Positions 33,727-35,270 of a stretch of 35,270 nt of DNA are shown here, in pieces. The stretch covers positions 1-35,270 of the forward strand of contig NZ_FOBL01000027.1 of assembly GCF_900109825.1 (NCBI RefSeq), given 5' to 3'. Every line of letters begins with the position of its first letter. The stretch's first letter is position 1. The translations under genes were made by a program, and so were the position numbers. The notes under the pieces were generated by a model. The model did no database searches. It was not told where the DNA came from and was given only the letters and a program-made list of their open reading frames with translations. Origin of the DNA: Alkalibacterium putridalgicola. Lineage in GTDB: Bacteria; Bacillota; Bacilli; Lactobacillales; Carnobacteriaceae_A.

Positions 33727-33808
33727 AGCCAGCAGGATAGCTAAACTAGTTTTATCATCTTAAAATAACTATCTTAATAAACAATAAGATTGCTCCGCAA
33801 TCTAAACC

Positions 33809-33837
33809 AGGACAGAAAAATCTTTTTATTTTATAAT
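33809..33837 (+). promoter_or_regulatory. Candidate promoter in the IS110 left end
   Basis: AGGACA (33809-33814) and a perfect TATAAT (33832-33837) are 17 bp apart, with a start predicted at about 33844. In characterised IS110 elements a promoter forms when the two ends join in the circular intermediate, so the true -35 box may come from the right end. Confidence 0.5.
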
Positions 33838-33844
33838 GGTCTCA

Positions 33845-33985
33845 GGAAACACCAATCCGACTTCTTAATGGGTTTTGCCGAACCTGTTTAATAAACTGGA
33901 TGACCGTCTTATCTTTTGCAATAAGCCGAATACATCATTGAATGTGGAAATAAAATTACAACATTTTATAAGACGGTTTGTTTCC
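33845..33985 (+). ncRNA. Candidate IS110 bridge RNA
   Basis: A self-complementary segment of about 141 bases. It is closed by GGAAACA (33845-33851) and TGTTTCC (33979-33985). Inside, ACCGTCTTAT (33903-33912) pairs perfectly with ATAAGACGGT (33968-33977), leaving a large internal loop region of 55 bases. Upstream is a small hairpin GGTT/AACC (33881-33894 region), then a near-palindrome CCTGTTTAATAAACTGG (33893-33909 region approximately). Known bridge RNAs of the IS110 group lie in this left-end position and carry target- and donor-binding loops. The loops cannot be assigned from one copy. Confidence 0.55.
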
Positions 33986-34010
33986 TAATTTATAGATGGA
34001 GGTTATGGTC

Positions 34011-35189
34011 ATGGAAGTGATGATTGAAACATGTTGTGGTATCGATGTGCATCAGAAATCCATCGTTTGCTGTATTCTTGACGGACCTTTAGATACAAAC
34101 CGACCTAAAAAAATCCAGAAAACTTTTGGCACTAGAACGGATGAACTTCGAGAGGCCCTTCAGTGGCTGGAAGACCATCACGTCACAGATATATTCATGG
34201 AAAGTACGGGACAGTACTGGGTGCCCGTGTTTAATATTTTTTCCGAAGGAACAGGGCAGTTGATTTTGGCTAATCCTCAACACATTAAAAATGTGCCCGG
34301 GCGTAAGACAGATATGAAAGATGCCGAATGGATTGCGCAACTCGGCCGTTGCGGCTTGATTCAATCGTCTTACATTCCTGCACCTGTAGTTATGGAACTA
34401 CGTCTGATGACACGCCGTCGGCTGTCTTATACTCAAAAACGAACACAAGCCAAGAATGAATTGCATAATATCCTTCAACGTTCCAATATCAAACTGACGG
34501 GTTACTTGTCTGACATTTTTTCCAAAACAGGACAAGCCTTGCTTCAACTATTTATCAACGGTGAAGTGTTAAGTTTGGCGTCTGTCAGTGCCTGTATGCA
34601 CGGGAAAGTCAAAGCCTCTCCCGAAGATATCCTCCGCGCGATGGACGGAAAACTATCAGTCACTGATCGACAATTACTCGAGGATTCGCTAGATGAATAC
34701 CGATTTTACAGTGAAAAGATCCAACAGATCGAAGGCCACATCCGTAAGTATATTCTGCTTCATTTTCCGGAGGAATACGACTTGCTGCTAACGATCCCTG
34801 GGATAAAAGAACAGGGTGCCGCTGTTATCTTAGCTGAAATTGGTCCAAATACAGAGGGCTTTAAAACAGTGGGTCACCTCGCTTCATGGGCAGGACTATC
34901 CCCTGGATCAAATGAAAGCGCGGGAAAAAAGAAATCGTCGCGAATAACCCCAGGAAATAAGTATTTAAAGACCACACTCATTTCCAGCGGGGGCATCGCC
35001 GGTCGATCGAAAGATTTTGCTTTTCGATCAGTGTATTACCGCATTTCCAGTAGAGGATCTAAAATGAAGGCTGTGGTAGCCTGTGGTCATAAGTTACTTC
35101 GAATCATTTATAAAATTTTAACGGATAAAGTTCCATATAACGAAAAAAGAGCACTAGGTCTGCGGCAACAGCACCTAGCACTCAACTAA
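34011..35189 (+). CDS. IS110-family transposase (DEDD recombinase)
   Basis: A 392-residue recombinase that moves the element guided by a bridge RNA in characterised relatives. The N-terminal RuvC-like DEDD domain has D12 (GIDVHQK), E64 (FMESTG), and D101 and D104 (GRKTDMKDAEW). The C-terminal Transposase_20 domain has the helix-hairpin LLLTIPGIKEQGAAVILAEIG, the HLASWAGLSPG segment and NESAGKKKSS, around the presumed catalytic serine. ATG at 34011 follows GGAGG by eight bases; in-frame ATGs at 33996 and 34005 overlap that site. The frame is intact, so the element may be active. Confidence 0.93.
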   Translation: MEVMIETCCGIDVHQKSIVCCILDGPLDTNRPKKIQKTFGTRTDELREALQWLEDHHVTDIFMESTGQYWVPVFNIFSEGTGQLILANPQHIKNVPGRKTDMKDAEWIAQLGRCGLIQSSYIPAPVVMELRLMTRRRLSYTQKRTQAKNELHNILQRSNIKLTGYLSDIFSKTGQALLQLFINGEVLSLASVSACMHGKVKASPEDILRAMDGKLSVTDRQLLEDSLDEYRFYSEKIQQIEGHIRKYILLHFPEEYDLLLTIPGIKEQGAAVILAEIGPNTEGFKTVGHLASWAGLSPGSNESAGKKKSSRITPGNKYLKTTLISSGGIAGRSKDFAFRSVYYRISSRGSKMKAVVACGHKLLRIIYKILTDKVPYNEKRALGLRQQHLALN

Positions 35190-35270
35190 AAAAATAAAAA
35201 TTTACTTGTATTTATTATAGCATGGGGTGTGTTTTTTGCGCTTTTTTGCATTATTATTTTTCAAATAAAA

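Follow-up and report, generated by a model that had tools for sequence, protein, structure and literature searches.

The window analysed, a stretch of 35,270 bp of Alkalibacterium putridalgicola (contig NZ_FOBL01000027.1), ends in an insertion sequence which, judged by sequence comparison, is very probably a broad-sense member of the IS110 family that encodes a bridge RNA in the non-coding region preceding its transposase gene, the guides of this RNA being in reversed order with respect to IS621. This reading is carried by the fold of the RNA and its covariation, by the matches between guides and element junctions together with their register, and by one empty site. In the mechanism proposed, the RNA would be transcribed and bound by the recombinase; hairpin 2 would bind the donor junction, its 3' side pairing with the element's right end (left donor) and its 5' side putatively acting as right donor guide, and the DEDD/Ser recombinase would exchange target and donor strands beside an AA core, so that insertion would proceed without target duplication. 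All features described below are located on the + strand, and their coordinates are those of the window.

The insertion sequence, its ends and its transposase

The element is 1489 bp long (33782..35270) and runs from C33782, the first base past the left target core, up to the last base of the motif TTTTTCAAATAAAA at the right end; the rule for this boundary derives from an empty site found in a relative. The sequence-only reading had placed the left boundary at 33727, which is host DNA, while the element proper begins at 33782. A 1500-bp block (33771-35270) recurs unchanged in two other contigs of this genome, C41 and C45, which diverge exactly past 35270, and the end of the window falls within this repeat. 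The genome thereby holds three full-length identical matches (that of the window, C41 and C45), and the segment 33845-33985 encoding the RNA, whose inclusion in further copies had been proposed as a check, is present in all three. Contig C41 leads on to the gene situated after rpsD in relatives of the genus (blastn) and represents the right flank of the insertion in the window; C58 and C41 therefore border a single insertion on either side, and C45, whose left flank is missing, represents another, so that the genome contains at least two separate insertions. Just past the element, the right flank on C41 (L003) displays repeat units of approximately 55 bp around TCCTGAACTC...GTGAAAAAGTG up to the next gene, and these units are also present in G011 (L115). 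A distant blastn comparison with phages gave no match to the element.

Five nucleotides inside the left cut lies a palindromic hairpin (AGATTGC-TCC-GCAATCT, 33787..33803). Of 43 elements, 28 contain a palindrome with arms of at least 5 bp that begins about 6 nt away from the left cut, compared with 8.7% of shuffled sequences; as it occurs with upstream and downstream RNAs alike, it is probably a feature of the DNA. A possible subterminal inverted repeat was seen by eye (left copy GAAAAAT, 33815..33821; right copy ATTTTTC, 35256-35262), and the longest inverted match in the window is another stretch than this pair. Among the 28 of 49 elements for which both ends were found, the inverted match between left and right ends was 7.2 within elements against 6.0 between elements (0 of 3000 permutations); the longest match measured 5-10 bp in these 28 elements and was located 29-35 nt from the left cut in 22 of them. 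The right end (35257..35270) is composed of TTTTTC, the left donor AAATAA and the AA core, a motif shared with relatives, in which mostly TTTTC or TTTC precedes the donor. A left-end palindrome beside a co-varying subterminal repeat was not met in the parts of the IS621 and IS1111 texts available to us.

The transposase/recombinase of 397 aa (33996..35189) carries the Pfam domains DEDD_Tnp_IS110 (2.5e-28) and Transposase_20 (1e-18) and is assigned to the IS110 family by NCBIfam as well. Its residues D17, E69, D106, D109 and S308 were invariant in a comparison of 12 sequences and aligned to the active-site residues of IS621 and ISCro4, named after the portion of PMC11208158 available; the IS621 row had no N-terminus, and ISCro4 was the sole solved reference for D17. 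The element thus possesses the DEDD RuvC-like domain, Transposase_20 and the catalytic D, E, D, D and Ser that define the IS110 family in the broad sense, and the transposase is intact, as had been claimed from the sequence alone. The transposases of six streptococcal elements (L007, L008, L009, L155, L164 and L168) gave two-piece matches with a change of frame at the same residue (257/258), and the Streptococcus salivarius plasmid records annotate the transposase as two genes; this is possibly a programmed frameshift.

Inside the left end, a sigma-70-like promoter site (33809..33837) was found, comprised of AGGACA, a 17-nt spacer and the TATAAT box noticed earlier (33832-33837), with 10 of 12 consensus matches. 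It is separated by 7 nt from the start of the RNA, and a similar site was present in 21 of 38 elements with an upstream RNA versus 1.9% of shuffles.

The structured RNA upstream of the transposase

The candidate bridge RNA covers 141 nt (33845..33985) and was delimited by its fold, by covariance-model matches and by covariation. The 7-bp closing stem described previously, P1 (GGAAACA/TGTTTCC, 33845-33851/33979-33985), encloses two predicted hairpins. Hairpin 1, predicted to bind the target (33855..33901), contains stems P2 (33855-33859/33897-33901) and P3 (33869-33874/33881-33886). Hairpin 2, predicted to bind the donor (33902..33978), contains P4 (33902-33912/33968-33978), which includes the perfect 10-bp inner stem reported from the sequence alone, and P5 (33931-33935/33942-33946).

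The folding energy of the RNA was -32.7 kcal/mol, compared with -22.5 +/- 3.5 kcal/mol for shuffled sequences (z -2.9; 2 of 200 shuffles as good). In the covariance-model alignment, which comprised 32 distinct homologues, two-sided changes were observed at 28 of the 34 pairs, the co-variation of stems that had been suggested as a check; 95.0% of the paired cells were paired, compared with 72.3% after shuffling and at most 44.4% for slid structures, and none of 500 shuffles reached any of the five covariation measures. Since the alignment was fitted to the structure, these counts are flattered, though the margin is large. We consider the folding energy alone as modest support, and the covariation among homologues as decisive for the predicted fold. 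RNAalifold on a first MAFFT alignment had returned only 13 pairs because the outer stems were misaligned, and was superseded by the covariance-model alignment.

The first covariance model was built from eight close sequences, including that of the window, and gave 44 matches in 72 sources; with a broader model, 54 matches with E values of at most 1 were obtained among 91 loci, the weakest of these matches being probably due to chance. Model R1, applied to 398 class-level genomes in a weak search, detected 7, among them the genome under study, and no Rfam family matched the window at gathering thresholds. In L155, L156, L162, L165 and L170, the predicted fold places the 3' strand of P4 on the ribosome-binding region of the transposase (CCTCTTATTC with GAATAGGAGG or similar), an alternative pairing which, if it forms, could act as a switch between the guide RNA and expression of the gene.

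It is very unlikely that the segment instead serves the transposase gene as an untranslated leader or attenuator, with a structure that regulates translation and contains no guide. Such a role would agree with the end of the segment lying 10 nt before the transposase start and with the P4 pairing predicted for several copies of the streptococcal type, but it leaves unexplained both the matches, element by element, between loops and junctions and the presence of the same RNA downstream of the transposase in 11 loci. The bridge-RNA reading accommodates these matches through three guides: the right target guide CUUCUU on the 5' side of hairpin 1 (33861..33866), which pairs with AA-GAAG; the left target guide UUAAUAAA on its 3' side (33888..33895), in the same sense as the left target and core; and the left donor guide AAAUAAAA on the 3' side of hairpin 2 (33948..33955), whose letters equal the right end of the element.

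Guides, junctions and target sites

Guides and junctions were compared for 49 of 91 elements, near-copies and short ones having been removed. The mean longest match of the left target guide was 8.27 nt at the element's own junction versus 5.34 nt at those of others (0 of 5000 permutations), with matches of 8 nt or more in 38 of 49 elements, versus 3% of mismatched pairs, and shorter ones in the remaining 11. The left donor guide gave 8.15 versus 6.72 nt (0 of 5000 permutations), with 8 nt or more in 32 of 46 elements; 22% of mismatched pairs also reach 8 nt, since related elements have it in common, and this match therefore partly reflects shared ancestry. The 3' side of hairpin 2 and the right end nevertheless change together from element to element (AAATAAAA, AAACAAAA, ATATAAAA, GTATAAAA, ATAAAAAA and GTACAAAT). 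No clear match to the element's left end was found for the 5' side of hairpin 2, the putative right donor guide, among the 43 of 49 elements with a left match of 7 nt or more. The check proposed for the loop bases thus yielded matches for the target side and for one donor side of the core.

For the right target, 44 right flanks were scored in a fixed register. From 45 right-end placements, the row of the window (wrong place), L152, L164, L006, L019, L020, L039, L044 and L165 (which fitted well) were left out, C41, C45, L089-L092, L156 and L161 were added by hand, and L027, which is without a guide, was scored zero. At offset 4, the register directly after the core, the right target guide matched 2.43 of 4 bases versus 1.43 (n=35, 0 of 5000). 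Other offsets were at chance except for one two bases away (2.60 versus 2.21 over six bases, p 0.007), a smaller excess that may be explained by A-runs. The matches are partial and slip in A-runs: in the fixed register, L159 scored 0 of 6, and C45, L089, L157, L010, L045 and L046 each 1 of 6.

These comparisons also bear on the proposal that the bridge RNA follows the guide order usual for IS621, the apparent reversal having been produced by the alignment or by the labelling of strands. The RNA shares its upstream position with that of IS621, and a loose region-wide test of the right target gave p 0.006 for the IS621 order; with p 0.013 obtained for the reversed order as well, this test does not discriminate between the two, and was replaced by the fixed-register test, which was run on the reversed order alone and supports it. 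Under the IS621 order, pairing was at chance for the left target (5' side of hairpin 1, same sense: 4.71 versus 4.77, p 0.69, 0 of 49 elements with 8 nt or more) and for the left donor (5.57 versus 5.49, p 0.30), while the IS621 control copy L195 yields the published order under the same conventions (left guide 5', right guide 3'). The left end of this control is partly duplicated, and the letters of its loops were chosen by hand. An artefactual reversal is accordingly extremely improbable.

At its own site, the element of the window is preceded by CTATCTTAATA-AA and followed by GAAGAAGTC; 12 bases are matched in total, TTAATAAA by the left guide and AA-GAAG by the right one. The left target half and AA core (TTAATA-AA, 33774..33781) are host DNA, and their letters equal the left target guide. 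The target TTAATA-AA-GAAG is located approximately 56 nt past the rpsD terminator, counted from its T-run, and the terminator is therefore not itself the target. The suggestion that the target loop explains insertion after this terminator holds for the AT-rich target, which is matched, but not for the terminator. Among relatives of the genus, none displayed a clean empty site corresponding to the rpsD insertion. More generally, a strict terminator-like hairpin opens 3 of 30 right flanks, in a set where the L151 flank is wrongly placed, versus 1.8% of background windows (98 of 5511), so that terminator targeting is at most a tendency. By eye, the right flanks of L090, L091, L096, L152, L156, L160 and L198 display insertion at the foot of a hairpin, some of them terminator-like, with the A-tract forming the core side of the target.

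An independent check came from a relative on S. salivarius plasmids (L197/L198) that was kept outside model building, although other streptococcal elements were included. Its left guide is TATCAAAAAC and its right guide reads AA-AGACA; the left guide fits both insertion sites (TATCAAAAAC and ATCAAAAAC). The joined flanks of L197, TTTATCAAAAAAAGACATTTC, equal the empty site L202 and are identical over 21 bases, with L201 differing at this site by one base and L203 by two, and target bases were neither duplicated nor lost upon insertion. In L197 the left guide is matched in full, and the right flank reads AAAGACA, one A beyond the register; in L198 the right guide is in register (AGACA, 5/6). 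At the point of insertion of L198, L204 and L205 contain about 13 bases more and L206 is unrelated, hence no clean empty site is available there. The L202 empty site already holds TATCAAAAAAAGACA, which contradicts, for this one element, the view that the left-end bases matching hairpin 1 belong to the element, as a terminal repeat of internal sequence, and not to the target. That view would fit the bases adjoining the element that are shared within a family (four left junctions of G011 and eight of G018), but the right flanks, which are host DNA, match as well, and we regard it as extremely unlikely.

Guide order, RNA position and relation to known systems

In the lineage of the window with upstream RNA, the right target guide comes first and the left second. 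On these sequence matches, the guide order of the window is the reverse of that of IS621 and equals that of IS1111, with the RNA upstream as in IS110. The IS1111-type controls displayed the right guide first, as published, L188 clearly and L192 less so, the latter being a weaker control because of a same-sense match on its right side too; the ends of both elements were set via the published 7/3 rule. In one sub-branch, 11 loci carry the RNA on the downstream side of the transposase, with the left target guide still on the 3' side (8 nt or more in 10 of 11 loci, 7 in L021). As read from these predicted guides, the lineage carries the same RNA upstream or downstream of the transposase with its order unchanged. 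The element L030 (Alicyclobacillus) has two matches to the RNA model, one before its transposase and a weaker one behind it. In the recombinase tree, the downstream group needs a single change (support 99/98), and the lineage of the window stands apart from IS621/ISCro4/ISEc32 and from L188/L192, in a tree with long reference branches of uncertain placement and an uncertain root.

The published contrast (PMC11187229, in the part available) pairs an upstream RNA and left guide first with the IS110 type, and a downstream RNA and right guide first with the IS1111 type; the same source notes that both groups include exceptions in where the RNA lies, and proposes that IS110 comprises further families. 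Like the element of the window, IS621 (PMC11208160 and PMC11208158, as far as available) combines a DEDD and Ser recombinase with an upstream RNA, two guide-loop hairpins and a core dinucleotide. It differs in having the two target guides, and likewise the left donor guide, on opposite sides, a CT instead of an AA core, a recombinase of 326 instead of 397 aa that belongs to a distant lineage, and a promoter reported to be made at the circle junction, whereas the promoter-like site of the window lies inside the left end. The longer upstream non-coding region characteristic of the IS110 group (IS621/ISEc21 type) is found in the window (214 bp from 33782, versus 81 bp downstream), but the bottom-strand (left) guide 5' of the top-strand (right) guide is not.

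With IS1111 seekRNA elements (PMC11187229, same part; L188 and L192), the window shares the complement of the top strand (right target) first and the match to the bottom strand (left target) second. In contrast, IS1111-type elements carry their RNA downstream and have subterminal inverted repeats of 14-15 bp in L188/L192, whereas the RNA of the window is upstream and inverted repeats are 5-10 bp long and far from the left end; their recombinase lineages are also separate. The IS1111 repeats of 11-13 bp near both ends (7 and 3 bp) are lacking in the window lineage, and a downstream position of the RNA-bearing non-coding region is not seen in the window and occurs in the lineage only in a separate sub-branch. 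ISArsp3 (L191, IS110 family by record annotation) falls inside the same large branch, a likeness of the recombinase alone. In the accessible text of PMC11187229, PMC11208160, PMC11208158 and PMC12045711, figures, supplements and bioRxiv preprints aside, no statement was found on the mixed order of an upstream RNA with the right guide first; six further RNAs drawn in Extended Data Fig. 10c of PMC11208160 lie outside the scope of this comparison.

The sequence-only reading of the segment as the bridge RNA is borne out by the copies, the stem covariation and the matches between loops and junctions; the guide order, opposite to that of IS621, had not been foreseen. On balance, we favour the view that these elements may represent a third deep lineage of RNA-guided DEDD recombinases, present in Bacillota, Bacteroidota, Thermodesulfobacteriota and archaea, in which the guide RNA would have moved between the ends while its fold and IS1111-like order were kept, so that RNA position and guide order would be separate traits, and which displays a left-end palindrome beside a co-varying subterminal repeat. 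The novelty of the mixed order is less certain than the finding itself.

Because the lineage breaks the published pairing of position and order, position alone would be unfit for reading or programming guides, and applying the IS621 rules to these elements would reverse their target guides. As its recombinase has an A-rich target, with the AA core and the ends defined and an empty site observed in a relative, the lineage is a candidate for reconstitution. The element of A. putridalgicola appears to carry a small guide RNA that chooses its landing site, with the guide halves opposite to those of its best-studied relative and the RNA at the same end.
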